Shown piece by piece: positions 9,878 to 42,372 of a stretch of DNA of 64,000 nucleotides (position 1 is the stretch's first letter; the number at the start of each line of letters is the position of its first letter). The DNA lies in assembly GCA_038396585.1 (NCBI GenBank), contig CP121691.1, positions 1,426,001 through 1,490,000 on the forward strand, given 5' to 3'. This stretch comes from Vallitaleaceae bacterium 9-2. GTDB taxonomy: Bacteria > Bacillota > Clostridia > Lachnospirales > Vallitaleaceae. Under the pieces are notes generated by a model, which had not been told where the DNA came from, made no database searches, and saw nothing but the letters and a program-made list of their open reading frames with translations. Position numbers and translations under genes: made by a program.

Positions 9878-10966
9878 ATGAAAGTAATAATCGCAAGTGC
9901 ACTTGCCATAATGATGATGTTTAATTTTAATATATCAAAGAGAATTGATCAATGGAGAAACATATTTGAAGAGGCAATATCTTTAGCTAATTCGGATAAT
10001 CCAAGCGAAACATATATACAAGGGAAAACGCAAGAACAGATATGTACGTTGGCGGATAATATTATGTCCTGGCAGCTTGAAAATGGAGGATGGTCTAAAG
10101 ACATGCCGCAAATTTTTGAACGTCAATGGAATAAAAAGGAAAATAAGTCCAAGTATTATCAAATGGATGGAAAAACACCGTTAGGAACCATTGATAATGA
10201 CGCCACCGTTAAGCAACTATATATTTTGGCGGAGTGTTATCAAGTAACAAAAGATGATGACGTTAAGCAAGCCATCAATAAAGGCCTTAATTTTTTAGTC
10301 GAGATGCAATATGATTTAGGCGGGTTTCCACAAGTTTACCCTGTTCAAGATTCAACTCATTCATTATATGAGAACATGGCCACCTTTAATGATGATGCTA
10401 CGATTCGAGTACTGACGCTTTTTCAAAACATTTCCTATCATTTGGCTCCATTTGATGATGATGTTATCGATCAAGATCTTAGGCATCAAGTCTATAATGC
10501 CTATGCTAAAGGTATCCAGTTTATCTTGAAGTCTCAAATTCGTGTTGACGGAAAATTGACGGGATGGTGTGCTCAACATGATCCCTACACATACGCTCCG
10601 GTGGCGGGGCGCCCATTTGAACCCAAGTCAATCTCTGGGCAAGAATCGGTGACGATTGCTAAGTTCTTACAAACGGTATGGCCGCGAACAGCAGAAGTTC
10701 AGATGGCTATTGATGGATTTGTCGAATGGCTTGAAACGGTTGCAGTGGAAGATGTGAAGTATTATCGTTATCCTGTGGATGGAAGCCATTTTGTTGAAAC
10801 ACCAGGCAAGTTGATGTGGTATAGATTTTATGAAATAGGAACGAATAAAGCTTTATTTGGAGATTCAGATGGAAGTATTTATTATACAATTGAAAAAATT
10901 AGCTTAGAACGCCGTAAAAATTATGGTTATGCAGGTGATTGGGGAAAAACTTTAGTCAGTAGGTGA
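9878..10966 (+). CDS. PL10-type pectate lyase paralogue 1
   Basis: 362-aa protein of the PelA/Pel-15E pectate lyase family (CAZy PL10), which cleaves polygalacturonate by beta-elimination with Ca2+. Family blocks in order are WQLENGGWSKD, GTIDNDAT, GGFPQVYP, TFNDDATIR, QHDPYTYA, RPFEPKSISGQES, WYRFYEIGTNKALFGD and YGYAGDWGK. A weak hydrophobic N-terminus (residues 1-17) may act as a signal sequence or anchor. The gene follows the last glycosyltransferase by 31 nt and its stop overlaps the region of the next lyase start, so the three lyases form a tandem paralogue set. Its context in an EPS locus points to remodelling of self-made polymer rather than plant pectin use, which is inference. Confidence 0.85.
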   Translation: MKVIIASALAIMMMFNFNISKRIDQWRNIFEEAISLANSDNPSETYIQGKTQEQICTLADNIMSWQLENGGWSKDMPQIFERQWNKKENKSKYYQMDGKTPLGTIDNDATVKQLYILAECYQVTKDDDVKQAINKGLNFLVEMQYDLGGFPQVYPVQDSTHSLYENMATFNDDATIRVLTLFQNISYHLAPFDDDVIDQDLRHQVYNAYAKGIQFILKSQIRVDGKLTGWCAQHDPYTYAPVAGRPFEPKSISGQESVTIAKFLQTVWPRTAEVQMAIDGFVEWLETVAVEDVKYYRYPVDGSHFVETPGKLMWYRFYEIGTNKALFGDSDGSIYYTIEKISLERRKNYGYAGDWGKTLVSR

Positions 10967-10971
10967 TGGCG

Positions 10972-12132
10972 ATGAAGCGTTATAAGATAAAGAACATGAC
11001 TTACATAGGTTGCATAATTTTGATTATTCTATTGATGTTAACGGTTAATAATATCAATGGGTCTCAACAAATGCGCCAAACAGCAGAGAATATTATGTCT
11101 TGGCAACTTGAAAATGGAGGCTGGACAAAAGATAATCCGGATATTTTTACGCGAACTTGGGATGGAAAAGAAAAAAAAGCCAAGTACTATCAGCAGGATG
11201 GAATTACGCCACTTGGGACAATTGATAATGGTGCGACAGTAACGGAACTAGATGCGTTGGCAAAAGCCTATCACCAATTAAAAGATCCAATGATTCAAGA
11301 AAGTTTTCGACGAGGGATAGAGTTTCTTCTATTGATGCAGTATGCATCTGGGGGTTTTCCACAAGTTTACCCAAAGCAAGATGCAAAAGTATCCCTATAT
11401 GAGAACATGGTGACGTATAATGATGATGCAATGATTAATGTGATGTATCTATTTCAAGAGATTATCTATGAAAAAAACTATTATGGTAATGGATTAGTGG
11501 AGGATACATTACGCCAAGAAGTGGAAAAAGCTTATAATAAAGGCGTTGAATATATGGTGGCTTCTCAAGTTCATGTTAATGATCAGTTAACAGCATGGGG
11601 AGGGCAACATGATCCAAATACCTACGAAACGGTACAAGGAAGAATTTTTGAGCCTAAATCTTTGATGAGTAAGGAATCTATTGATATTATATATTTTTTG
11701 GAAACGGTTCGACCTCAGACAGCCGCAATACGACAAAGTGTATTTTATGCTAAAAGCTGGGTTAAGGCAACTGCACTTGAGAATGTTCGCTATGAGCGAT
11801 ATGGGATAGATGGTGAGTACTTTATCGATAACCCGGGACATTTGACATGGTATAGATTCTATGAAATAGGAACAAATGAACCACTTTTTGCCGATTTTGA
11901 TGGGACGGTGTCTCATAGTATTTTGGATATTAGCATAGAGAGAAGACATGGTTATGGTTGGGCTGGTTCATGGGGAAAAGAAATCTATAATGAGCAGCAG
12001 GAAGCTTTATTGGAGACAACAGAAGATGAACGACACATATTATTCATAAATACATTGATTGGACTTATAAGTATACTTCTTATTTTGTTAATCATTAGGA
12101 CTAAGGTCCTAATAAAAAAGAAAAGAAAATAG
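10972..12132 (+). CDS. PL10-type pectate lyase paralogue 2, membrane-anchored at both ends
   Basis: About 386 aa. An N-terminal membrane segment (IGCIILIILLMLTV) precedes a PL10 domain with WQLENGGWTKD, GTIDNGAT, GGFPQVYP, TYNDDAM, QHDPNTYE, RIFEPKSLMSKES, WYRFYEIGTNE and YGWAGSWGK. A second hydrophobic helix (LIGLISILLILLII) and a KKKRK tail close the C-terminus, so the domain should sit outside the cell, tethered at both ends. The usual GTIDNDAT is GTIDNGAT, losing one acidic residue of a conserved block. GTG 10963 and ATG 10966 are possible starts. ATG 10972 is preferred because AGGTGA lies at the right distance. Catalytic competence is uncertain. Confidence 0.83.
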   Translation: MKRYKIKNMTYIGCIILIILLMLTVNNINGSQQMRQTAENIMSWQLENGGWTKDNPDIFTRTWDGKEKKAKYYQQDGITPLGTIDNGATVTELDALAKAYHQLKDPMIQESFRRGIEFLLLMQYASGGFPQVYPKQDAKVSLYENMVTYNDDAMINVMYLFQEIIYEKNYYGNGLVEDTLRQEVEKAYNKGVEYMVASQVHVNDQLTAWGGQHDPNTYETVQGRIFEPKSLMSKESIDIIYFLETVRPQTAAIRQSVFYAKSWVKATALENVRYERYGIDGEYFIDNPGHLTWYRFYEIGTNEPLFADFDGTVSHSILDISIERRHGYGWAGSWGKEIYNEQQEALLETTEDERHILFINTLIGLISILLILLIIRTKVLIKKKRK

Positions 12133-12211
12133 GACTTGAGGGTAAAAAAATATTGACCAATAAAGCCTTTGAACAAAGCGTGAACAAAGGGTTAAAAGAA
12201 TAGCTGACCTA

Positions 12212-12240
12212 TTTACGCATAGGTATCGGCGTGGTATAAT
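12212..12240 (+). promoter_or_regulatory. Sigma-A promoter with extended -10 before the tandem riboswitches
   Basis: TTTACG (12212-12217), a 17-nt spacer and TATAAT (12235-12240). The bases TGG just before the -10 give an extended TGnTATAAT element. It lies about 37 nt upstream of the first c-di-GMP aptamer, so transcripts from here carry both aptamers in the leader of the third lyase gene. Confidence 0.7.
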
Positions 12241-12276
12241 ATATTTGTAGTCAAGTACTTCGTATTTTACAACTTC

Positions 12277-12350
12277 AACTGATAAAGGCAAACTTACTGA
12301 AAAGTAAGGACGCAAAACTATAGGGCCTTCCAATAGGATGGTAGCCAGTC
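12277..12350 (+). ncRNA. Cyclic-di-GMP-I (GEMM-I) riboswitch, first of tandem pair
   Basis: The sequence has the GEMM-I landmarks: GATAAAGGCAAAC, a CTTACT/AGTAAG stem capped by a GAAA tetraloop, GACGCAAA, a P3-like CCTTCC/GGATGG hairpin with AATA loop, and GGTAGCC. The outer stem ACTG/CAGT (12278-12281 with 12346-12349) closes the aptamer. A run of seven T at 12362-12368 follows, with a short possible pairing TTCCA (12328-12332) with TGGAG (12357-12361). This may be a terminator-type expression platform, but the stem is weak and I cannot fix the switching mechanism by eye. Confidence 0.9.
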
Positions 12351-12446
12351 GCCAAATGGAGTTTTTTTGTTGTCAAATACACGTATTAATTTTTATAAAC
12401 AAAACAACACTCTTTCATAAAGGATCAAGAGAGTTCGACGAACTTC

Positions 12447-12520
12447 AACTGATAAAGGCAAACTTACTGAAAAGTAAGGACGCAAAACTATAGGGCCTTC
12501 CAATAGGATGGCAGCCAGTT
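12447..12520 (+). ncRNA. Cyclic-di-GMP-I (GEMM-I) riboswitch, second of tandem pair
   Basis: Second aptamer, identical to the first over 70 nt (12271-12340 against 12441-12510) and differing at two bases in the closing region (GCAGCCAGTT instead of GTAGCCAGTC). The closing stem is AACTG/CAGTT. It lies 54 nt upstream of the lyase start codon. TCCAAT in the P3 strand (12499-12504) can pair perfectly with ATTGGA (12553-12558) just before the AGGAGG site. An alternative fold affecting ribosome access is therefore possible; this is a by-eye inference. Confidence 0.9.
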
Positions 12521-12573
12521 TCCAAAGAGAATGTTTTGTTTTCGATTATTCGATTGGACTTAGGAGGTCTTTT

Positions 12574-15426
12574 ATGAAGCGGTTTTTAGTAGCGATTTTA
12601 GTTTTATTTATGTCAATGAATATTGTGAGCTTACCAGTAGAAGCAGGCACCGACGTGAACTTACAAGTTGCAGAATATATTATGTCCTGGCAGTTAGATA
12701 ATGGTGGTTGGTCAAAAGATAATCCAGATATGTTTACTCGATACTGGGATGGAACAGAAAAAAAAGCAAAATACTATCAACGTGATGGAGTTACTCCACT
12801 TGGAACGATTGATAATGATGCAACAGTTACACAAATCGAATATTTAGCAGCAGTATACAATACAACACGTAATGAAAAAGTGAAGGCATCAATCCTTAAA
12901 GGATTTGACTTTTTACTAAAAATGCAATACCCAACAGGTGGTTTTCCACAAGTTTATCCAGAACAACAAGCTTCTGTATCCTTATATGAAAATGATGCAA
13001 CATTCAATGATGATGCAACAGTAAATGTTCTTAATTTATATAAAAAGGTTTTAGATAAAAATAGTGAGTACAACAACGGATTGATCAGCACGACATTGTA
13101 TAATCAAATTAAGAATTCTTTTGATCGTGGTGTTGACTTTATATTAAAAGCGCAAGTTGAAGTCAATGGAGTTAAAACTGTATGGGGTGGACAACATGAT
13201 CCTTATACATACAAAACAACTCAAGGTCGTTCGTTTGAACCATTGTCTTTGATTAGTCAAGAATCTGCAAAAATCGTAGAATTTTTAGAATCACTAAACA
13301 GTTCAGACCCTGAAATCAAACGAAGTATTTTATCAGCAAAGATTTGGTTCCATGAAACTGTTTTAGAAGATGTAAAATATGTACGTGATGGTGTTAATGG
13401 AGAGTATTTCATTGATTCTCCGGGAACAAGAACATGGTATCGTTTTTATGAAATAGGAACAAATAAAGGATTATTTGGTGATAGAGACGGCTCAGTAGCA
13501 TACAGTATTTATGATATTAGTACTGAAAGAGCACTCGGCTATGGATGGGCAGGAACTTGGGGCAAAACAATCTACTATGCGGCATCAGCTGACGATTATA
13601 TGAGAGAGTTAGTTGCATTAAGCCCAGGTGTTGAAGAACCGAAAGAAGAGGTTAATGACGATCGTTTTTTTAGCCAAGGTGAGTGGATAGCAAGAGGTAA
13701 CAGTTATATTGATGAAAATGGTTTTCACTTTATAGAGAGTGGTGAAGACACTATTCAGTCACCAGTACTTACATCAGTTAACCAAGGTGATAAAATCACC
13801 ATAGAGATGGAAATAACACAAACAAATAGAGAATCTAGTATTTTAGTTATGAACAATGAAGGATTACGTTCTCAAAATTCAGAATGGCAAATTGGTTATG
13901 CAACGAAAACACGTATAATGAATTTTGATGTAAACGCAGATTTTGCCGAGGCGGATAAATTTGTAGCATTTAAAATTGACGGTGGAGTGAATGGAGAATC
14001 GATTGATGTTGGACATATTGATATCTATGTCAATGGTGAAAAACAACTTTTTACTACTGAAGAACCAGTCATCGAAGAACCAGTAGTTGAAGAACCGGTA
14101 ATTGAAGAACCGGTAATTGAAGAACCAGTCATCGAAGAACCAGTCATCGAAGAACCAGTGATTGAAGAACCGATCATCGAACAACCTTCATATCCGGTAA
14201 GTGCCATTGTATTTACACAAGGCACGAATAATACATATGTTTATGATAACTTTGATGCAGTGAATATTGGCGATACAGTTATTATTGATTTGGATATTAT
14301 TGAAGCAAATACTGCCGATGGAAAGCTTGTATTAAATAATAAAGGTTTACGAAGTGATAAATCAGAATGGGTCATTGGAAATGGAGTAAAATCACGACAT
14401 ATTGAATTTACAGTAACAAAAGAATTTAATAGTAGTGAACAATTTTTGGAGCTAGCTTTTATTGGTGGACAAACAGAGGACACACTTGTTATTGATAATC
14501 TTAACGTGACTTTTGATCGAGTGGTGGTTGAAGAGCCAGTAGTCGAAGAGCCAGTGATTGAAGAACCAGTGATTGAAGAGCCAGTGGTCGAAGAGCCAGT
14601 GATTGAAGAACCAGTGGTCGAAGAGCCAGTGATTGAAGAACCAGTGATTGAAGAGCCAGTGATTGAAGAACCAGTCATCGAAGAACCTTCATATCCATCA
14701 AGTGCTATTGTGTTTACAGATGGAAGTGACGATACATATATCTATGATGCATTTGATACGGTGAATGTAGGCGATACAGTCATTATTGACCTAGATATTA
14801 TTGCAGCAGACACAGTTGATGGAAAGCTTGTCTTAGATAATAAAGGTTTACGAAGTGATAAGTCAGAATGGGTTATTGGAAATGGAATAAAATCACGACA
14901 TGTTGAGTTTACAGTGACAGAAGAGTTTAACAGTAGTGACCAATACTTAGCATTAATCTTTGTTGGTGGACAAACGGAAGATACCTTGGTCATTGACAAC
15001 TTTGAGGTGACTTTTGATCGAGTAGTGATTGAAGAACCAGTGATTGAAGAACCAGTCATAGAAGAGCCGGAAGAAGATCCAGGTGTTAGTAGTTTCTCCG
15101 CTCGAAATATTGAATTTATTCAAGGGTCAGATGAAACCTTTGAAACAATTGATTTAACAGCAGCGCAACCAGGTGATACGGTTGTTGTAAAAATTACAAT
15201 TGGAAGTACTGAGCGTGAGTTAAGTGAATTGTACCTAAACAACACAGGTCTAAGAGAAGGAACAGACTTATGGAAAATTGGCCATGGTGTAAAAACAAAA
15301 ACATTTGATTTTGTAATAAATGTTGATGATTTAAGAGATTCTGATAAATTTTTGGAATTTATTATTGCCGATGGACAAGCTGGTGAAAGTATTTTTGTAG
15401 AAAGAATTGAAGTAACAATTAACTAA
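12574..15426 (+). CDS. Secreted modular PL10 pectate lyase with four beta-sandwich-like repeats
   Basis: 950-aa secreted protein. A signal peptide (residues 1 to about 25, ending VEA-G) is followed by a PL10 domain (about 28-360) with WQLDNGGWSKD, GTIDNDAT, TFNDDATVN, QHDPYTYK, SFEPLSLISQES, WYRFYEIGTNKGLFGD and YGWAGTWGK. Then come four related modules of roughly 110-125 residues (about 366-491, 540-651, 705-818, 838-950), each with an N-x-G-L-R ... W-x-I-G-x-G-x-K core. They are joined by EEPVI/EEPVV pentapeptide linkers. The modules look like carbohydrate-binding beta-sandwiches, but the family is not recognised. No LPXTG signal is seen. An in-frame ATG at 12508 lies inside the riboswitch and is rejected; ATG 12574 follows TAGGAGGT. 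Expression is probably c-di-GMP controlled through the two upstream aptamers. Confidence 0.88.
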   Translation: MKRFLVAILVLFMSMNIVSLPVEAGTDVNLQVAEYIMSWQLDNGGWSKDNPDMFTRYWDGTEKKAKYYQRDGVTPLGTIDNDATVTQIEYLAAVYNTTRNEKVKASILKGFDFLLKMQYPTGGFPQVYPEQQASVSLYENDATFNDDATVNVLNLYKKVLDKNSEYNNGLISTTLYNQIKNSFDRGVDFILKAQVEVNGVKTVWGGQHDPYTYKTTQGRSFEPLSLISQESAKIVEFLESLNSSDPEIKRSILSAKIWFHETVLEDVKYVRDGVNGEYFIDSPGTRTWYRFYEIGTNKGLFGDRDGSVAYSIYDISTERALGYGWAGTWGKTIYYAASADDYMRELVALSPGVEEPKEEVNDDRFFSQGEWIARGNSYIDENGFHFIESGEDTIQSPVLTSVNQGDKITIEMEITQTNRESSILVMNNEGLRSQNSEWQIGYATKTRIMNFDVNADFAEADKFVAFKIDGGVNGESIDVGHIDIYVNGEKQLFTTEEPVIEEPVVEEPVIEEPVIEEPVIEEPVIEEPVIEEPIIEQPSYPVSAIVFTQGTNNTYVYDNFDAVNIGDTVIIDLDIIEANTADGKLVLNNKGLRSDKSEWVIGNGVKSRHIEFTVTKEFNSSEQFLELAFIGGQTEDTLVIDNLNVTFDRVVVEEPVVEEPVIEEPVIEEPVVEEPVIEEPVVEEPVIEEPVIEEPVIEEPVIEEPSYPSSAIVFTDGSDDTYIYDAFDTVNVGDTVIIDLDIIAADTVDGKLVLDNKGLRSDKSEWVIGNGIKSRHVEFTVTEEFNSSDQYLALIFVGGQTEDTLVIDNFEVTFDRVVIEEPVIEEPVIEEPEEDPGVSSFSARNIEFIQGSDETFETIDLTAAQPGDTVVVKITIGSTERELSELYLNNTGLREGTDLWKIGHGVKTKTFDFVINVDDLRDSDKFLEFIIADGQAGESIFVERIEVTIN
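14059..14187 (+). repeat. 15-bp tandem coding repeat, EEPVI linker 1
   Basis: About eight units encoding E-E-P-V-I or E-E-P-V-V, built from a GAAGAACCAGTNNTN-like 15-nt unit. It links the first and second C-terminal modules of the modular lyase. Identical 15-mers recur within it, so the copy number may vary by slippage or recombination. Confidence 0.85.
14527..14685 (+). repeat. 15-bp tandem coding repeat, EEPVI linker 2
   Basis: About ten units of the same E-E-P-V-(I/V) linker between the second and third modules, with alternating GAAGAG and GAAGAA codons. A shorter three-unit version follows at about 15028-15069 before the last module. These repeats also create long open frames on the opposite strand, which are artefacts. 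Confidence 0.85.
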
Positions 15427-15440
15427 ATAACAATCGTCAA

Positions 15441-15469
15441 AAGCCTACCAATTCATTGGTAGGCTTTTT
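15441..15469 (+). terminator. Intrinsic terminator after the modular lyase
   Basis: Perfect hairpin AAGCCTACCAAT / ATTGGTAGGCTT with a two-base loop, followed by a T run. It ends the riboswitch-controlled lyase transcript. Confidence 0.92.
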
Positions 15470-15536
15470 CTTTACTTATAGAAATGAATGTGCTAATCTT
15501 AAATTATAAACCGATGGGTAGAAATGAGGGATATTT

Positions 15537-16544
15537 ATGAATAAACGCAAAACAATATTGACGATAGTCTTTAGTTTTATCGGAGCGCTTCTTCTTATTA
15601 TTATATTAACTTTTATATTTTCAAATACAAATAATATAGAAGGATCGGACAATAAAAAAAGTGAAAACCTTAATGAAGAAAAGATAGTTAGTGACTATCA
15701 AGATACTATAGCAGACAATGGGCTAACTTTGGATGTGGAAGTTCCTGTAGACAATACAATATCGCCAAGTGAAAAGCCTGAAAAAGTTGAAGAAGATATA
15801 AGAATGTTTTTGTTCTTGGGTATTGACCGTACAGAAGAAAGAGATTCACAATATAGTATTTATCGTGCAGATAGTATTTCAGTTTTGCGAGTGGATGTGG
15901 CTAATGCATGGGCAAAAGTCTTGTCTATACCTAGGGACACATATACCTATTTACCGATTAGGGAAAAAAATGATAAAATTAATCATGCGTACGCATTTGG
16001 GACATTAAAAGGGCGAGCAGAAGTGAGTATGGTAGAAGCGGTTAATTTGTTACTAGAAGAAGAAGAAATGCGTAAATATTTTACCCTTGAGATGGAACCG
16101 ATTGCAACAATTGTAGATCAAATTGGGGGCGTATGGATTGATGTTGAAGTAGATATGCATTCACATGGAGCAGATTTGTCAAAGGGATATCAAAAACTTG
16201 ATGGAGAAGAAGCCTTTGATTATGTACACTGGCGATATTCAGGTGATGGTGATATCGGGCGTATACGACGACAACAACAATTTGCAGTAGCACTCCTTAA
16301 AAAACTATCAGAAGAGTATAGTGATACAGATCTTACAAAATTCTTTATAAACAACAGTGAATATACAAATACGAACATACATGTTAACGAATTAGCTGAA
16401 GTGACGCTTGCTTTATCCAAAATTGAAGATATAGAATTTAAAACTTTGCAAGGAAGCTCTATAAAAATAGATGGAATATATTATTGGAAATTAGATGAGG
16501 ACGAACTAGAAGAAGCACTGACATGGTTTTATGACAATAAATAA
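15537..16544 (+). CDS. LytR-CpsA-Psr (LCP) family cell-wall polymer ligase
   Basis: 335-aa membrane-anchored protein with an N-terminal transmembrane helix (TIVFSFIGALLLIIILTFIF), an acidic linker and an LCP domain. The domain shows FLFLGIDRTE, YRADSISVLRVD, VLSIPRDTYTYL, KINHAYAFG, the DGEEAFDYVHWRYS block and GDIGRIRRQQQF, with the Arg residues that bind the polyprenyl pyrophosphate. LCP enzymes transfer lipid-linked glycopolymers to peptidoglycan outside the cell. Lying next to the UDP-GlcA epimerase gene (23 nt apart), it probably attaches the EPS or a related polymer to the wall. ATG 15537 follows GAGGG. Confidence 0.9.
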   Translation: MNKRKTILTIVFSFIGALLLIIILTFIFSNTNNIEGSDNKKSENLNEEKIVSDYQDTIADNGLTLDVEVPVDNTISPSEKPEKVEEDIRMFLFLGIDRTEERDSQYSIYRADSISVLRVDVANAWAKVLSIPRDTYTYLPIREKNDKINHAYAFGTLKGRAEVSMVEAVNLLLEEEEMRKYFTLEMEPIATIVDQIGGVWIDVEVDMHSHGADLSKGYQKLDGEEAFDYVHWRYSGDGDIGRIRRQQQFAVALLKKLSEEYSDTDLTKFFINNSEYTNTNIHVNELAEVTLALSKIEDIEFKTLQGSSIKIDGIYYWKLDEDELEEALTWFYDNK

Positions 16545-36113: not shown

Positions 36114-36144
36114 AGGCTGTCCACATTTGTGTGGGTGGCCTTTT
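36114..36144 (+). terminator. Intrinsic terminator after the flavodoxin-like gene
   Basis: 12-bp stem, AGGCTGTCCACA with TGTGGGTGGCCT (three wobble pairs), loop TTTG, followed by TTTT. It separates the flavodoxin-like gene from the RiPP operon. Confidence 0.75.
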
Positions 36145-36145
36145 G

Positions 36146-36154
36146 TGGTATAAT
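36146..36154 (+). promoter_or_regulatory. Extended -10 promoter of the RiPP accessory operon
   Basis: TGGTATAAT (TATAAT at 36149-36154) lies 23 nt upstream of the first gene of the operon, right after the preceding terminator. The -35 region (TTTGTG at 36126-36131) is poor, which fits an extended -10 promoter. Confidence 0.55.
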
Positions 36155-36176: not shown

Positions 36177-37391
36177 ATGACCATTAAAGAGATAGCGTCG
36201 ACTATGTTTTTATTAGATGAACAAAGAACCGGACGATTAAAACATCGCATTCATTCATATGAGCTGACACCAGAGTTTTCTTTTACATTACGTGCATATC
36301 CACTCAAAGGGCCAGAAGCTTCACCGGTTTTTGATGCAGATGGCAATATATACTTTGCATCCCATGATGGATGCTTTTATTCAATTAGCAGCCAAGGCCA
36401 GTTACGTTGGATGTTTAATTCTGGGAAGACAAAAAATTATGGAAGCCCTTCGATATCAGAAAATTATGTGATTTTTACATCAGGAGAGGGGAATGTCCAT
36501 TGTTTTACAACACAAGGGGAGCTAATGTGGACCTATTATTTGGGTGCATACTTTGATGCAATATCTAATCGGTACTTAAGAAAGATGCGCAAAGGGATTA
36601 ATGCATTAGCTACATATGATTGGCATACAAAAAAGTTTCGCTTAAATAAATGCTGGTCTTCTCCCCTTATTAATAAAAACCAAATTTTGATTACAGGTTA
36701 TGGTATCGGACTGCATTGTATTGACTTGATATCGGGTCAATGCGAATGGACATTTGATTTAGGCATGCCTAGATATCCATTAAGTGGTGTAGCCATAGAC
36801 GAAGACAACAATATCTATGTGGCGGCAAATAGACATCGATTATATGGATTACATGCCAATGGACAAATGAAATGGGAGTATACACTTAAAGAAAACTATA
36901 TGTTTTGGGGCAATCCAACAGTAGATATAGAACATCAAAGTGTTTATTTTACAGGAGGGATTGGAGAAGATCGGGGCATTGTTTTATGCTTGGGATATGA
37001 TGGACAGTTAAAATGGAAGAAAGAGCTTGCAGGGGCCATTCGAGGAAGTGTAAGTATATCCTATGAAAACTATGTGGTTTTAGGGACATTAAGCGGCCAA
37101 TTAATGGCGCTAAATAAAGAGGATGGTTCAATAATCTTTAGTCATCGCCTAACGCAAGCTAAAAGAGGTTTATGGACAACTCCAAGCATTGATTTAGATG
37201 GGCATATTCTAATAACAACAAAAGATAGTAATACAAAAGGTCGCATACTGATATTTAATTCAGAAGGAAAACAAAAAAGTTCTTTGGACATAGGAAAAGC
37301 CCTTTCCGTTCCTATTGTTGATCAGAAAGGTATTATCTATGTTGGCTCATGGAATGGAACGATGATGGCTATCAGCACAAAAAAAGGGTGA
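36177..37391 (+). CDS. PQQ-like beta-propeller repeat protein in the RiPP locus
   Basis: About 404 aa made of repeated PQQ/quinoprotein-type blades, for example SPVFDADGNIYFASHDGCFYS, GQLRWMFNSGK, GQMKWEYTL, GQLKWKKELAG and the closing GIIYVGSWNGTMMAIS. There is no signal peptide, so it is probably cytoplasmic, where such propellers commonly act as protein-binding platforms. It is the first gene of an operon with the nucleotidyltransferase, PqqD-like and kinase genes (gaps of 4, 1 and overlapping). Its role in peptide maturation is unknown. ATG 36177 is favoured, although the GAGGGAG site lies very close to it. Confidence 0.75.
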   Translation: MTIKEIASTMFLLDEQRTGRLKHRIHSYELTPEFSFTLRAYPLKGPEASPVFDADGNIYFASHDGCFYSISSQGQLRWMFNSGKTKNYGSPSISENYVIFTSGEGNVHCFTTQGELMWTYYLGAYFDAISNRYLRKMRKGINALATYDWHTKKFRLNKCWSSPLINKNQILITGYGIGLHCIDLISGQCEWTFDLGMPRYPLSGVAIDEDNNIYVAANRHRLYGLHANGQMKWEYTLKENYMFWGNPTVDIEHQSVYFTGGIGEDRGIVLCLGYDGQLKWKKELAGAIRGSVSISYENYVVLGTLSGQLMALNKEDGSIIFSHRLTQAKRGLWTTPSIDLDGHILITTKDSNTKGRILIFNSEGKQKSSLDIGKALSVPIVDQKGIIYVGSWNGTMMAISTKKG

Positions 37392-37395
37392 GCGT

Positions 37396-38589
37396 ATGGA
37401 TTTTAGAGTGACGATGTTGTTACAGGCGTTAAATCAAATCAAGGAGCCAAAGGTTGAATTGTCACATGAACAGTGGAATCAATGCTTACAATTTGCAGCG
37501 GAGCATGGATTAGAGTGTGTCTTCTTTGATTATTATCAACTTTTTTTTCCTGACGACTTTAAGCAATCGGATATTTATCAAAAATGGCAAGGAAAAATCA
37601 TCCATCGTCTATTTTGGACAAAACAATCAGAAAGAAGAGCTAGAGAGGTTTTAGCACAGCTAGAGAAACAAGGCGTCTTTGCCATTGTATTAAAGGGGAT
37701 TGACTGTGCTTCATATTATATAAAGCCTGAAAATCGTACCATGAGTGATATGGATATTTTTCTTCATTGGGATGATCTAGAGCAAGCGGATAAGGTTTTC
37801 CAATCATTAGACTATATACATGCGCAAGATCAAGATACAGATAAAGAATATATATATTATCCTAAAGAGGAAGGGTATTTTTTTGAAGTACATTTTGCAT
37901 TGTTTAAGAAAGAGCTATCGGATTATACCCAAGCATTTGGGTATAATGCACTGCAAACAGCAGTTCGATCAAAAGATGGGGAATTTAATGTGTTGGAACC
38001 AACATTAGCGACAGCTTATATGCTCGTTCATATGGTGAAGCATTTGTACGGAACAGGAATAGGTTTAAAGGGATTATATGACCTGGCTCTATATGTGAGA
38101 GCACAAAAAGAGCATATTGATGAACAAAAGCTTAAGTTATATCTGACAAAATTTCACATGTTAAAAACAGGTGCATATATTTTAGCGTGTGCCAATAGAT
38201 TTTTAGCAAGTGGGTTTGTTCTAGACTATGAAATACAAGATGCGTTTTGCAATAACCTTTTTGGGATTATTGCGCGTTCGGGTGATACAGGGATGCGTGA
38301 AGAGTATGTTATAGAACAACGTTATGAAGTTTTGGCTCAGGGACCTTATAAGGGAAAAAAAGATAAAATGCATCTGTTGACATTTGTTTTTTTACCCTTA
38401 GACCAAATGAAAAAAAGATATTCTAGTTTAAATAAGCATTCTTGGTTGCTACCTGTGTTTTGGGGCGTTCGGATTGTTCGAGTAGTTTTCAAATCGCGTC
38501 AAAATCTAAAAAAATGGATTCGACGCGATATTAATCACCGTAATATTATGACACATCAAGAAACCATAACTTTTTTAAAGGAGGAATAA
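37396..38589 (+). CDS. NTP_transf_5-type nucleotidyltransferase of the RiPP locus
   Basis: 397-aa protein of the uncharacterised nucleotidyltransferase family (PF14907-like). The signature is VLKGIDCASYYIKPENRT followed by MSDMDIFL (paired Asp residues of a polymerase-beta-like site). Homologues occur in lasso-peptide clusters that also carry an HPr-kinase-like gene, where they act on the phosphorylated peptide (known for the pseudomycoidin-type cluster). It is co-transcribed with the PqqD-like and kinase genes. What it adds here is not known. Confidence 0.8.
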   Translation: MDFRVTMLLQALNQIKEPKVELSHEQWNQCLQFAAEHGLECVFFDYYQLFFPDDFKQSDIYQKWQGKIIHRLFWTKQSERRAREVLAQLEKQGVFAIVLKGIDCASYYIKPENRTMSDMDIFLHWDDLEQADKVFQSLDYIHAQDQDTDKEYIYYPKEEGYFFEVHFALFKKELSDYTQAFGYNALQTAVRSKDGEFNVLEPTLATAYMLVHMVKHLYGTGIGLKGLYDLALYVRAQKEHIDEQKLKLYLTKFHMLKTGAYILACANRFLASGFVLDYEIQDAFCNNLFGIIARSGDTGMREEYVIEQRYEVLAQGPYKGKKDKMHLLTFVFLPLDQMKKRYSSLNKHSWLLPVFWGVRIVRVVFKSRQNLKKWIRRDINHRNIMTHQETITFLKEE

Positions 38590-38590
38590 A

Positions 38591-38872
38591 ATGGAAAAAG
38601 GAAGAGTATTTAAGCAAAAACCAGATGTTCAGCCATCAAACCTTGGTGGAGAGCTAGCCATGCTAAATATTGACTCAGGGGAATACTTTGTCATTAATGA
38701 AGTGGGCAAAGATATTTGGGAATGTATTAATGGCATACGAAATGTTAGCCAAATTATTGAAGAATTAACACAAGTATATGCAGCAGATTCAGAAGAGATA
38801 GCAGATGATGTTATGCGTTTTATTCAAGAGCTTGAAGAGGCGAAGGTTATCGTAGAGGTTGCGTATGAGTAA
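38591..38872 (+). CDS. PqqD family RiPP recognition element (lasso B1-like)
   Basis: 93-aa PqqD-type winged-helix domain. It has GGELAMLNIDSGEYFVINEVGKDIWECI and VSQIIEELTQVYAAD, the standard B1/PqqD layout. These proteins bind the leader peptide of a RiPP precursor and deliver it to the protease or modifying enzymes. Stand-alone B1 proteins pair with a separate B2 protease in Firmicute lasso clusters; here the B2-type gene is at 41911. It is separated by 1 nt from the nucleotidyltransferase gene and overlaps the kinase gene. Confidence 0.88.
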   Translation: MEKGRVFKQKPDVQPSNLGGELAMLNIDSGEYFVINEVGKDIWECINGIRNVSQIIEELTQVYAADSEEIADDVMRFIQELEEAKVIVEVAYE

Positions 38873-39773
38873 TCTACGATATTACAAACTGTTTGGTCTG
38901 AATGTAGAGGCCAATATCAACTTGAATATAATGGAATGCAAACCGTGTAAAGCGGATGTTATTATTGAAGTTGAGGCATGGGAGCCGGCGTGTGTTGATG
39001 ATGACTTGGGCGAATTTCATATTCATGGAATAAATGATATTGGCGTAGATATTCATAATCTTGCGCGGTTTAGAATTCAAGATGGAAAGTCGATGCTCAT
39101 AACGCCTCATAAACCAACATATTGGGAAAATGAGTTGGTAACATATATCGTTGGAGTTGCATTTGCAACACTTTTGTTACAACGTGATATTTTTTCCATT
39201 CACGGCAGTGCAGTTTGTGCGAATGATTTGGCTTTTATTATTTTAGGGGAAGCAGGTGCTGGCAAGTCTTCACTGGCACGGCAAAGCATTCGATCAGGCT
39301 ATAAGCTTTTAAGTGATGATTTGTCCGCAATATCTACAAAAAATCAATTGTATGTCATACCAAGTTTTCCTACGCAAAAGATGTGGAAAGATACGATGGA
39401 TGTCTATGAGTATTTACCAGACCCTAAGAAACAAATTTTCCCAAATGCAGAAAAATTTTATGTGGATATACAGGAGGATTTTGAAGAAACGAGTAAGCGC
39501 TTAGGGGCAATTATTTGGCTTGAAGCGAGTAATGTAGACCAAGTGACCTTAACTCGACTGAATAAGACCAAAGCACTCGAAGTGTTATTAACCCATGCAT
39601 ATATTGAAGAAATGGTAGAACGCTTAGCATTGAAGGCACAACAATTGAACCTGTTAAGTTATGTCCTGTCACATGTAGATGTATATCATCTTGAGCGTCC
39701 ACGGGAAGGCTTTACTTCAAAGGAACAGTTACACTTAATTGAACAGGAACTGTTTTTTCATAAAAAAATGTAA
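38865..39773 (+). CDS. HPr-kinase-like peptide kinase of the RiPP locus
   Basis: 302-aa protein related to HPr kinase/phosphorylase and to the kinases of paeninodin-type lasso clusters. The Walker A loop is GEAGAGKSS (about residues 128-136), preceded by FSIHGSAV and followed by LLSDDLSAI. The N-terminal half differs from housekeeping HprK. In paeninodin the homologue phosphorylates a Ser of the precursor. ATG 38865 overlaps the PqqD-like stop codon region (upstream TTG 38859 is rejected). It is the last gene of the operon, 135 nt before the precursor gene. Confidence 0.85.
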   Translation: MSNLRYYKLFGLNVEANINLNIMECKPCKADVIIEVEAWEPACVDDDLGEFHIHGINDIGVDIHNLARFRIQDGKSMLITPHKPTYWENELVTYIVGVAFATLLLQRDIFSIHGSAVCANDLAFIILGEAGAGKSSLARQSIRSGYKLLSDDLSAISTKNQLYVIPSFPTQKMWKDTMDVYEYLPDPKKQIFPNAEKFYVDIQEDFEETSKRLGAIIWLEASNVDQVTLTRLNKTKALEVLLTHAYIEEMVERLALKAQQLNLLSYVLSHVDVYHLERPREGFTSKEQLHLIEQELFFHKKM

Positions 39774-39814
39774 AAAACATTTGAATAAAGTATGAACAAA
39801 TTGTAAACTTTTTC

Positions 39815-39843
39815 TTGTGGTTTTTTTTCTTTGATGGTATAAT
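39815..39843 (+). promoter_or_regulatory. Promoter of the RiPP precursor gene
   Basis: TTGTGG (39815-39820), 17-nt spacer, TATAAT (39838-39843) with TGG before it (extended -10). It lies 65 nt upstream of the precursor start codon, giving the precursor its own transcript. Confidence 0.7.
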
Positions 39844-39908
39844 AAACCTATAGCAAATACTTGCTAAAAGTAGTGAGTAACATTTTATTCGTTATAGGAG
39901 GTAATATT

Positions 39909-40022
39909 ATGAAAAAATGGGAAGTTCCAAAAATCAAAAAATTAGACATTAAACAAACAGAAATGCGCCCAGGTAACGGCTATGGACGTACACATAGCAA
40001 TTGGAAGTGGGGACGCGACTAA
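39909..40022 (+). CDS. RiPP precursor peptide, lasso-like leader with atypical core (37 aa)
   Basis: Small gene preceded by a strong AGGAGGTAA site. The leader MKKWEVPKIKKLDIKQTE has the WxxPxI pattern bound by B1/PqqD proteins and a Thr 10 residues after the Pro, as in paeninodin-type leaders (Thr at -2). The following 19 residues, MRPGNGYGRT then HSNWKWGRD, would be the core. A lasso core needs Asp or Glu at position 7-9 for the macrolactam; here those positions are Tyr, Gly and Arg, and the only acid is the last residue. Thr and Ser in the core are possible phosphorylation sites. The gene sits between the accessory operon and the exporter, with its own promoter and strong terminator. Precursor identity is inferred from context and leader. 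Confidence 0.78.
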   Translation: MKKWEVPKIKKLDIKQTEMRPGNGYGRTHSNWKWGRD

Positions 40023-40033
40023 TTATATATATT

Positions 40034-40068
40034 AAAGAGTATCTGATGATTCAGATACTCTTTTTTTT
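40034..40068 (+). terminator. Strong intrinsic terminator after the precursor gene
   Basis: 13-bp perfect stem, AAAGAGTATCTGA / TCAGATACTCTTT, four-base loop and a run of eight or more T. It makes the precursor transcript monocistronic and short. Confidence 0.95.
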
Positions 40069-40121
40069 GATACTATAGGTGCGTTCAATAGTTCTAAAAA
40101 GTATGGCCAATAGTTTATATA

Positions 40122-41819
40122 TTATTCGTATGCTTTGGCTGGGACTAATTGCTTTTCTTTGATTTCATAAATTTCATCACATATAGTTAGTAATTGAGTG
40201 CCATGCGTGATTGCAATCAATGTGGTATTCGGGTAATAATGGGTAATGTTTCGTATAAGCTGACGCTCGGTTTCACGATCAAGTGATGAGGTGGCTTCAT
40301 CAAGAATTAAGAACGGTTTATTATGAACGAGCGCACGAGCTATATTGATACGCTGGGCTTGACCTTGAGAAATGCCAACTCCACGTTCGTGGATGAATGA
40401 ATCAATGCCATTGTCCAACTGACGAATAAACTCGTCGCAGCATGCAGCAGTGAGTGCGGTTTGAATCTGATCAGGGGTTATGGTTTCGTTTAAAAAAAGG
40501 TTTTCGCGAAGACTTCCCGAAAACAGCGGGTTTGATTGAGAAACGTAGCTAAAGTAGTTACGTGATGCAAAGGTAAGTGGAAGCTTTTTACCTGAATCAA
40601 AAGAAATAAATAAGGATCCCTCAGATGGTTCTATCAGGGATAAGACTAAATGGATGAGGGTGGTTTTCCCACTACCGGAAGGTCCTATAATGCCGATGCG
40701 GCGTCCGGAGGTAATGGATAAATTAACCTTATCTAGTACACGGGTATTTTCATCATATGCAAAGGATAAATTATGAATATGTAGCCCGTTGATTGTTTCG
40801 TTTTCATTTATGGTATAATGATTTTGTGATGTTTCATCGGGGAGTGCAATAATTTCTTCGATACGTTCTAGAGAAGAAAGGGAAGAGATAAGTCGAGGAA
40901 TCGAACGTGTCATTTCATGAATAGGTCCTTGTATTTCGCCAACAAGCTGTAAAAAAGCAGTAAATGTTCCAAAACTAATAGCTGATTGAGCTAAGCGATA
41001 TGCACCTAATGTCAACGCAAAGAAAAAACCAACATTATATCCACTTTCAAGAATAACATTTGCCTTGATGCTTGTAATATTTTTATGTTTGATAAGTTTA
41101 AAGCGATTGTTTTGTAAAGTTGAAATCTGGAATAAGTTCTCATGAAGGAAATTGAAGGTTTTTAGTAATATAAGATTTTGTAGCGATTCATTAATTTTTG
41201 AACGTTGTATGCCATCAGCATTTTGAATCTTATATTGAATATCGCGAAGCTTGCGACCAATAATAAGACTAATAAGTACAGTAAAAGGTGTGATAAGAAA
41301 AGTAAGCATTGCCAGTAACCAGTCAAAATAGGCAAGCATCGCAAAAGCAGCAACAAATTGTAGCAAAAGGGCAATCATTGTCGGAATAATTGTCGTTATG
41401 CTTTGAATAACATGGCGGACATCTTCATATAGACGTGTTAATAAATCGCCAGTATTATATTGACTGATTGTTGCCCATTTTTTATGATAGATTTTTGTGA
41501 GTACTTTAAGCTGCAAGTCATTAATCATGGTATTTTCAAGTTTCACACTATTGTGTGATAAAAGGCTATACAGGCTTAAATCGATAATTAAAAGTAAGGC
41601 GAAAAATATTCCGCTGCGAAGTGCAGCAATGTAGTTGCCATCAATGGCGTAGTCAATCATCATTTTTGTTATAAAGGCAATAAGTACATTAAGTAAAGCC
41701 TGTAAAATGCTTAATGATGTGATCAGCATAATTTTTGAACGATATCCGTTGGTATATTGGTATAGTATACGATAGATATTAATATCGATTAACTTTTTTA
41801 ACTTTTCCAGTGTTTGCAT
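40122..41819 (-). CDS. ABC transporter (fused permease-ATPase), RiPP exporter candidate
   Basis: 565-aa half-transporter. Six N-terminal membrane helices (about residues 30-320) and a C-terminal ATPase with Walker A GPSGSGKTT, signature GISQGQAQRINIARA and Walker B LILDEATSSLD. There is no C39 peptidase domain, as expected when the leader is removed by a separate B2 protease. It lies on the opposite strand between the precursor and the B2-type gene and probably forms a homodimer that exports the mature peptide or gives self-protection. The start is preceded by AAGGAGAG. Confidence 0.9.
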   Translation of the reverse strand: MQTLEKLKKLIDINIYRILYQYTNGYRSKIMLITSLSILQALLNVLIAFITKMMIDYAIDGNYIAALRSGIFFALLLIIDLSLYSLLSHNSVKLENTMINDLQLKVLTKIYHKKWATISQYNTGDLLTRLYEDVRHVIQSITTIIPTMIALLLQFVAAFAMLAYFDWLLAMLTFLITPFTVLISLIIGRKLRDIQYKIQNADGIQRSKINESLQNLILLKTFNFLHENLFQISTLQNNRFKLIKHKNITSIKANVILESGYNVGFFFALTLGAYRLAQSAISFGTFTAFLQLVGEIQGPIHEMTRSIPRLISSLSSLERIEEIIALPDETSQNHYTINENETINGLHIHNLSFAYDENTRVLDKVNLSITSGRRIGIIGPSGSGKTTLIHLVLSLIEPSEGSLFISFDSGKKLPLTFASRNYFSYVSQSNPLFSGSLRENLFLNETITPDQIQTALTAACCDEFIRQLDNGIDSFIHERGVGISQGQAQRINIARALVHNKPFLILDEATSSLDRETERQLIRNITHYYPNTTLIAITHGTQLLTICDEIYEIKEKQLVPAKAYE

Positions 41820-41910
41820 AGAACTCTCCTTTTCATCTGCAAAATATCTATAGTTCTATTGTATGTGAAGTTAAGGCTGGCGTCAATATATCTAAAAACA
41901 GGAGGTTAAT

Positions 41911-42372
41911 ATGGTAAAAATCAAGCTTGTGTTTTGGTATGGTATTATATATGTGTTGTCTTTTGGTTCATATGTTGCAATTAAGATTATCCCTTTTAAA
42001 TCCCTCATTACAAGAGTTACAAATACTGAAAAAATTATTGCATCGGATTTAAGCTTAACAAAACGTCAACAACAGCGCCTACTTCGAGTGCAAGAAATCC
42101 TTGAACGTGTAAGTGAAAAGGTGCCATGGCGCGTACTTTGTTTTGAACAGGCACTTGTGGCTTTATGGATTGCAAGAGTACTAAAGCTTAATATGAATAT
42201 ATATTTTGGCATTAAACATGAAGAGGGGAACTTATTAGCCCATGCGTGGACTGAGGCGGGAAATCAAATTTTTACTGGGGAACAAGGAAGAGAAGAGTTT
42301 TTGCCTGTATATATTCGAGGGTATAAACGTGAGATTCCAACATTTGACAATGAGCCTAAAAAAAGGAGCTGA
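41911..42372 (+). CDS. Lasso B2-type (transglutaminase-like) leader peptidase
   Basis: 153-aa protein of the lasso-peptide B2 family (transglutaminase-like cysteine protease, PF13471-like). It has an N-terminal hydrophobic segment, then VPWRVLCFEQALVAL with the catalytic Cys (Cys77) and NLLAHAWTEAGNQ with the His (His111). In lasso pathways B2 removes the leader delivered by B1. It lies downstream of the divergent ABC gene with its own AGGAGG site. Its last codons overlap a long hairpin terminator. Finding B1, B2, kinase and nucleotidyltransferase without a cyclase is unusual. Confidence 0.86.
   Translation: MVKIKLVFWYGIIYVLSFGSYVAIKIIPFKSLITRVTNTEKIIASDLSLTKRQQQRLLRVQEILERVSEKVPWRVLCFEQALVALWIARVLKLNMNIYFGIKHEEGNLLAHAWTEAGNQIFTGEQGREEFLPVYIRGYKREIPTFDNEPKKRS

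Follow-up and report, generated by a model that had tools for sequence, protein, structure and literature searches.

In the present study, we analysed a 64,000-nucleotide stretch of the genome of Vallitaleaceae bacterium 9-2 (GCA_038396585.1, contig CP121691.1, positions 1,426,001 to 1,490,000; hereafter the window). Positions 36177-42372 of the window hold a candidate cluster for a ribosomally synthesized and post-translationally modified peptide (RiPP), consisting of B1, a RiPP recognition element (RRE), a B2 peptidase, an HprK-like kinase, an NTP_transf_5 protein, an ABC exporter, a beta-propeller protein and a 37-residue precursor. A preliminary description had listed these parts and had seen no lasso cyclase in the window; all the parts were confirmed at that place, and no cyclase was found inside the window. 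The propeller, NTP_transf_5, B1 and kinase genes, a gap and the precursor gene follow one another on the plus strand, the exporter gene lies on the minus strand, and the B2 gene returns to the plus strand. Downstream of B2, a protein resembling GAPDH was read by eye. The features are as follows.

36114-36141, plus strand: terminator-like hairpin from the hairpin scan, upstream of the enzyme genes
Ending at 36154, plus strand: extended -10 element TGGTATAAT after the hairpin, read by eye and outside the promoter-scan list
36177-37391, plus strand: beta-propeller protein, 404 residues, PQQ_2/BamB-like, PQQ_2 above the Pfam cut-off
37396-38589, plus strand: NTP_transf_5 nucleotidyltransferase-fold protein, 397 residues, PsmN/LppN type, 119.1 bits against a cut-off of 31.2
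38591-38872, plus strand: B1, stand-alone PqqD-type RRE, 93 residues, PF05402 at 69.1 bits against a cut-off of 23.4
38865-39773, plus strand: HprK-like peptide kinase, ATG at 38865, in-frame TTG at 38859
39815-39843, plus strand: promoter-like element upstream of the precursor, TTGTGG-17-TATAAT with extended -10 TGGTATAAT, the extended -10 being conserved in the genus
39896-39902, plus strand: Shine-Dalgarno sequence AGGAGGT of the precursor gene, a sequence reading, conserved in the genus
39909-40022, plus strand: precursor peptide, 37 residues, leader 1-18, predicted core 19-37
40034-40063, plus strand: terminator hairpin of the precursor transcript, kept across the genus
40122-41819, minus strand: ABC exporter, MsbA-like, permease plus ATPase, 565 residues, ABC domains above Pfam cut-offs
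41911-42372, plus strand: B2, lasso-type leader cysteine peptidase, 153 residues, C77 and H111, NF033537 match

The precursor gene and its accompanying enzymes

The precursor consists of the leader MKKWEVPKIKKLDIKQTE, with W4, P7, L12, T17 and E18, and the predicted core MRPGNGYGRTHSNWKWGRD (residues 19-37). Its only NCBIfam match was 'paeninodin family lasso peptide', which was weak and below the cut-off (E=0.018), and a Pfam search with it gave no match. An identical gene was present in G096, a genome of the same species, and two precursor genes were found at the equivalent place in G001, a genome of the same genus. In the three copies of the genus (the window and the two of G001), the extended -10 element, the Shine-Dalgarno sequence, most of the leader and the terminator hairpin were conserved, with TGnTATAATA upstream of each copy, and the core varied apart from GRTx[S/C]xW. 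The conservation of these signals in the G001 copies makes a chance open reading frame (ORF) unlikely, and the sequence identifies the precursor as a real gene, with a promoter-like box and a terminator of its own that are both conserved. A promoter scan returned 30 sites, compared with 30.2 in shuffled sequences, with no excess over chance; it missed the promoter-like element of the window precursor because the -35 box was too weak.

B2 scored 55.5 bits with NF033537 ('lasso peptide biosynthesis B2 protein', cut-off 33), and its Cys77 and His111 were invariant in 13/13 aligned B2 proteins. The kinase reached 29.8 bits with Hpr_kinase_C, just under the cut-off of 33.3, and its motifs HGS, GxxGxGK and DD were invariant in all ten aligned kinases. 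The best NCBIfam match of B1, lasso_PqqD_Bac, was below its cut-off. The KG...DxD core of the NTP_transf_5 protein (K100-G101, D118 and D120) was invariant in 6/6 sequences. Its predicted structure (mean pLDDT 78) aligned best with the pol-beta-type nucleotidyltransferases MenT1, ANT(2'')-Ia and LnuA, with VIA-align Z values of 11-12 over 146-176 residues; the Z of 7.8 with FKRP falls in the range where a common arrangement alone may explain the match. Foldseek found no match to this model at E<=0.001 (best 2e-3), and when B2 and the NTP_transf_5 alignment were searched against PDB sequences, no informative match emerged.

The predicted structure of the propeller matched designed PQQ-type propellers and BamB, and no signal peptide was visible by eye. 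Propeller relatives (E<=1e-25) occurred in 3/392 genomes of the order, all of the window's genus; the propeller is therefore not a hallmark of the class but a genus-level accessory. The preliminary description had suggested checking whether cyclase-lacking versions with the propeller recur in other genomes; cyclase-lacking sets did recur (see below), and the propeller was found in one genus of the order.

In G001, the gene set and order were the same as in the window, and the kinase was 69% identical. The dN/dS values against G001 were 0.11 for the propeller, 0.15 for the NTP_transf_5 protein, 0.22 for B1 and 0.05 for the exporter. The small protein could alternatively stay inside the cell, as a phospho-acceptor or signal on which the set acts, and not be a secreted RiPP. 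The relationship of the kinase to HPr kinase and the propeller without a visible signal peptide would suit such a role, but an ABC exporter adjoins the precursor, and both this exporter (81% identity) and B2 (52-56%) are retained in G001, which makes this reading unlikely.

Cyclase search and recurrence of cyclase-free sets

To look for a cyclase outside the window, we searched the 3.81-Mb single-contig source genome (G000). A six-frame PF00733 search gave no match, with a method that was not fully sensitive (controls detected in 11/14). NF033535, the lasso cyclase model, then revealed a 533-residue Asn-synthetase-like ORF (C1:3183385-3184986; L180:3386-4987), 1.7 Mb from the cluster; as the six-frame search had missed it, PF00733 alone was rejected as proof of cyclase absence. 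The ORF carried an SGGYDSR PP-loop and scored 28.9 bits with PF00733 (cut-off 21) and 27 bits with NF033535 (cut-off 525). It scored higher, at 57.6 bits each, as an XrtA/PEP-CTERM amidotransferase and as an asparagine synthase, both far below the cut-offs. By eye, its neighbours looked like flippase, polymerase, glycosyltransferase and sugar-modifying genes, as in a polysaccharide-type locus. When the protein was used as a query, two of 12 family genomes matched, G000 itself and, weakly, G011 (E=4e-5); neither G096 nor G001, which both keep the RiPP locus, gave a match. From these sequence comparisons, we conclude that the ORF is not paired with the precursor locus. The genome-wide check proposed in the preliminary description thus ended with this single, unpaired candidate. 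Its action in trans, closing a ring on the window precursor, is highly improbable: the PP-loop and the PF00733 and NF033535 scores are in its favour, but the better-scoring families, the polysaccharide-like neighbours, the missing match in G096 with its identical precursor and in G001, and the precursor without an acid at the ring positions all argue against it.

In G001, G009, G013 and G016, no cyclase was found by PF00733, NF033535 or direct search with the G000 protein; in G096, which was outside the PF00733 set of relatives, none was found by the latter two. NF033535 gave one match in each of these five genomes, spanning at most profile positions 38-168; the matched ORFs, 474-503 residues long, are presumably glutamine amidotransferases (PurF, for example). 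G006 and G011 hold Asn-synthetase-like proteins away from the cluster.

A kinase profile search across the 392 genomes of the order yielded 30 full-length kinase places at E<1e-37 in 20 genomes. The remaining matches had E values of 1.5e-15 and weaker; those from 1e-10 to 1.5e-15 were assumed to be housekeeping HprK. Eleven of the 30 places lay in 8 of the 22 sampled genomes of the same family, belonging to genera g1 (the window's genus), g5 and g8. All eight genomes carried NTP_transf_5 above the cut-off (split in G016) and exactly one B2 above the cut-off, and no lasso cyclase was found in the fetched stretches. Four of the 14 kinase-less family genomes were tested, and none had a B2 above the cut-off (G003 had two below). 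In the three g8 genomes (L077, L078 and L080), we also observed a pair each of kinases, B1s and precursor types in one locus, with the single B2 of the genome apart.

Outside the family, 21 annotated loci were sampled, 16 in the order and 5 in the class. Fifteen had a cyclase in the stretch, four had B1, B2 and kinase without a cyclase (L119, L123, L172 and L175), and two were lone kinases (L128 and L130). The genomes of the four cyclase-free loci hold other Asn-synthetase-like proteins, so a cyclase in trans may act for them. On a tree of 35 kinases (without G096, a near copy), the cyclase label changed 6 times, compared with 11.8 in shuffles, and at least 4 of the 6 changes were forced by well-supported branches. 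These results indicated that cyclase-free sets recur in relatives. The preliminary description had weighed the case that relatives always contain a cyclase; they do not, given 8/22 family genomes and 4/21 outside loci. The cyclase-free status is common to three family genera and has undergone more than one change across the wider group, which excludes a recent deletion in the window strain.

Several further loci were recorded. L123 (G276:C3:48300-68000, family f6) holds B1, B2, kinase, NTP_transf_5 and ABC genes without a cyclase, and the same genome has cyclase-linked loci elsewhere. L088 (G070, same order; kinase E=3e-13, under the line and outside the 21 loci) shows divergent B1-like, NTP_transf_5-like and kinase-like ORFs at 10295-16482, with no B2 or cyclase by the models used; it is perhaps a further relative. 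L085 (G020) and L086 (G014) have NTP_transf_5 without a kinase. The nearest plasmid-borne kinases came from five records, and both of those examined (Butyrivibrio and Priestia) were cyclase-linked. The available text of a study on rumen lasso clusters reports that clusters called incomplete by tools often proved complete after curation (PMC7533575).

Precursor comparison and the proposed pathway

Precursors were found by the leader pattern, and chance-looking ORFs were dropped by eye; L125, L126, L128, L130, L134 and L173 had no accepted precursor. A Thr stood 13 residues after the Trp in 34/34 precursors (33 computed, G338c re-read by hand). This spacing matches the PbaA leader register of W-15 and P-12, given in the accessible part of PMC13381572, and thereby places the Thr at -2 and the predicted cut after the following residue. 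All 11 family precursors had W, T at +13 and then E.

The ring-closing position was then compared. Asp or Glu at T+8 to T+11 was present in 0/11 family precursors, whereas 14/15 cyclase-linked precursors had it (Fisher p=2e-5, computed with 13/15 and ignoring relatedness). The mean core charge was +5.0 in the family versus -3.3 in the cyclase-linked group. The family precursors were 31-48 residues long, with basic cores of 12-30 residues, and 7/11 had no acid anywhere in the core. Each family subgroup kept a hydroxyl residue (g1, GRTx[S/C]xW; the g8 types, PSG and GxSG; g5, C-terminal NPES), and a C-terminal Ser occurred in 4/11. In L119, L123, L172 and L175, 5/8 precursors had an acid in this interval, so these loci showed no acid loss. 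L119:8195-10726 (G127) and L172:8432-10824 (G678), from two families, each encode three precursors of 75-81 residues; all six have Ser at the C-terminus, and in several of them the Cys/His spacing of the core looks zinc-finger-like by eye.

These data bear on the possibility of a decayed lasso cluster, in which the cyclase was recently deleted and the remaining genes are being lost. The cyclase-linked versions elsewhere in the order and class, the broken NTP_transf_5 gene of G016 and the lack of a synonymous excess in B1 and B2 within the species would be expected from decay. Against this, eight genomes of three genera keep the cyclase-free set, four proteins have dN/dS values of 0.05-0.22 against G001, the 11 precursors without a ring acid nevertheless retain their leader, and in G001 the precursor gene occurs twice with its promoter-like box and terminator. 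Decay is thus quite improbable.

We consider it probable (roughly 70%) that the cluster encodes a linear, phosphorylated RiPP pathway related to paeninodin-type lasso clusters, with B2 cutting and export. As read from the sequence, the cluster has the parts and their conservation, no paired cyclase was found, and the precursor has no ring-closing acid; we infer every chemical step, the cut site and the export. B1 would bind the WxxP leader, and the kinase would phosphorylate a core Ser or Thr (T10 or S12 in the window core) while B1 holds the leader. NTP_transf_5 may subsequently decorate this phosphate by adding a hexose or a nucleotidyl group, as reported for PsmN in pseudomycoidin. B2 would cut after T(-2)-E(-1), and the exporter would secrete a 19-residue basic peptide. 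According to the available portions of the literature, Ser is the residue phosphorylated by HprK-like enzymes in paeninodin, in pseudomycoidin, in Bsf and in linear polyphosphorylated peptides (LPP): PadeK and PsmK act on the C-terminal Ser, BsfK on Ser3 with B1 help, and LppK on Ser3 (PMC9266682, PMC10368454, PMC13381572). PsmN has been linked to hexoses on the phosphorylated Ser of pseudomycoidin, and no visible change is reported after lppN deletion.

Several observations weigh against the linear, phosphorylated RiPP. B2 lies 26-33 kb from the kinases in G016 and 12 kb away in G011, and is on a separate contig from the kinase in G009 and G013. The kinase and B2 dS values against G001 were saturated, and the short precursors gave dN/dS of 0.38-0.48. 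The two same-species genomes differed by 6 synonymous and 6 non-synonymous codons in B2 and by 0 and 2 in B1, so that this comparison does not reveal strong constraint on B1 or B2. The kinase, B1 and precursor scored under several curated cut-offs, and two of the three residues of the B2 triad (Cys and His) were assigned. The register is the sole basis for the predicted cut after E, and a second Thr, T10 in GRTx[S/C]xW, is likewise conserved in the genus. In G016, a stop codon interrupts the NTP_transf_5 gene (L079:9795-10986), the kinases, B1s and B2 there all being open, and NTP_transf_5 may thus be dispensable.

The genomic context was also examined. The neighbours scanned in G009, G006 and G011 included genes for Wzz, polysaccharide flippase and glycosyltransferase, together with UDP-sugar dehydrogenase or sugar-nucleotide genes; such neighbours are also reported for LPP and paeninodin clusters. 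A thioester-domain (TED, PF08341) surface protein stood beside the precursor or at most one ORF from the kinase in 5/5 g5 and g8 genomes with the set (L077:10301-11809, L078:8433-9893, L080:6028-7521, L082:7872-9161 and L084:6148-7863). The TED model had no match at any other annotated locus, g1 included, and by eye the g1 flanks resembled housekeeping regions. A role at the cell surface is therefore suggested, not established. It is a tentative and rather doubtful extension that paeninodin-type lasso clusters gave rise, on several occasions within Clostridia, to a B2-processed, cyclase-free superfamily whose products would be linear phospho- or glycophospho-peptides with a function at the cell surface; the peptide may be attached to the TED protein or the capsule.

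Comparison with known systems

An HprK-related kinase with a PqqD-family protein also occurs in the HPr-rel-A system (TIGR04352/TIGR04353). Membership was rejected, as the kinase (27.1 bits, cut-off 200) and B1 (13 bits, cut-off 35) both scored under the cut-offs.

The window set resembles paeninodin- and pseudomycoidin-type clusters in its WxxP leader, the T 13 residues after W, B1, B2, HprK-like kinase, NTP_transf_5 and ABC exporter. It differs in having no cyclase and no ring-position Asp or Glu, and a C-terminal Ser is limited to part of the family. Of the features that define the paeninodin lasso family, the B1/B2 pair and WxxP with the Thr -2 register were found, and the cyclase and ring acid were not. 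The Bsf lasso cluster of Bradymonas sediminis is similar in that B1 assists its kinase in phosphorylating an internal Ser and B2 cuts the leader, but it has a cyclase, Ile at leader -2 and a YxxP leader (PMC10368454, accessible part).

The LPP clusters, reported in May 2026 with lppAKBSDN of Paenibacillus alginolyticus as the studied case, are cyclase-free (PMC13381572, on whose available portions this comparison is based). Both systems occur in Bacillota, have no macrolactam cyclase, and share a discrete RRE, an HprK-like kinase, an NTP transferase and an MsbA-like exporter. LPP clusters often lie in capsule loci, as do those of G009, G006 and G011. In LPP, a SipW/SpI-like serine peptidase (LppS) serves a YxxP leader cut after T-1, and S3 of a 45-residue core is phosphorylated in the studied case. 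The window family instead has a B2 cysteine peptidase, WxxP...TE leaders and the short basic cores; the window leader MKKWEVPKIKKLDIKQTE also differs from the LPP motif YxxPxVLxHQxIxFETxxS.

Membership of the cluster in the LPP family is unlikely. The shared parts, peptidase aside, would support it, and N37 and D73 of the window B1 align with N33 and D70 of LppB. However, the leader differs, the RRE profile is nearer to PbaB1 (84.3 bits) than to LppB (42.9 bits), and B2 is present with no match in the genome to TIGR02228 (SipW/SpI-type). TIGR02228 had no match in G000, G096 or G001, the LppS sequence itself not having been searched; six of the nine genomes searched matched, one above the cut-off and none within the stretches around the loci (control detected in 8/14 genomes, 4 above the cut-off). 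At the positions of Gly and Gln in PbaB1, the window B1 carries Asn and Asp, and its leader has Trp; within the family, the first of these positions is occupied by Asn in g1 and in one type of g8, by Asp in the second type of g8 and by Gly in g5. These mixed residues with Trp leaders suggest that the W/Y rule described in the accessible part of PMC13381572 does not transfer simply. The core SNWK resembles AQSNWK of LppA in the same source, possibly by chance.

The preliminary description had proposed a cyclase-free RiPP class. Open genes, recurrence and the missing ring acid support it in part, but the idea of a cyclase-free kinase RiPP is not new, since LPP had been published. We recognised no published report of a B2-containing cyclase-free cluster, with thin coverage of subscription papers. 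The results suggest that ring-enzyme loss is not peculiar to the serine-peptidase LPP lineage, the classic B2 also occurring in ring-less sets of several families. The very short precursors would allow the kinase target and the B2 cleavage rule to be studied apart from cyclisation, and the role of NTP_transf_5 bears on the same question for LppN and PsmN. Judged by sequence, the B2/WxxP arrangement differs from LPP, and the set is a variant beside LPP, not the first cyclase-free kinase RiPP.

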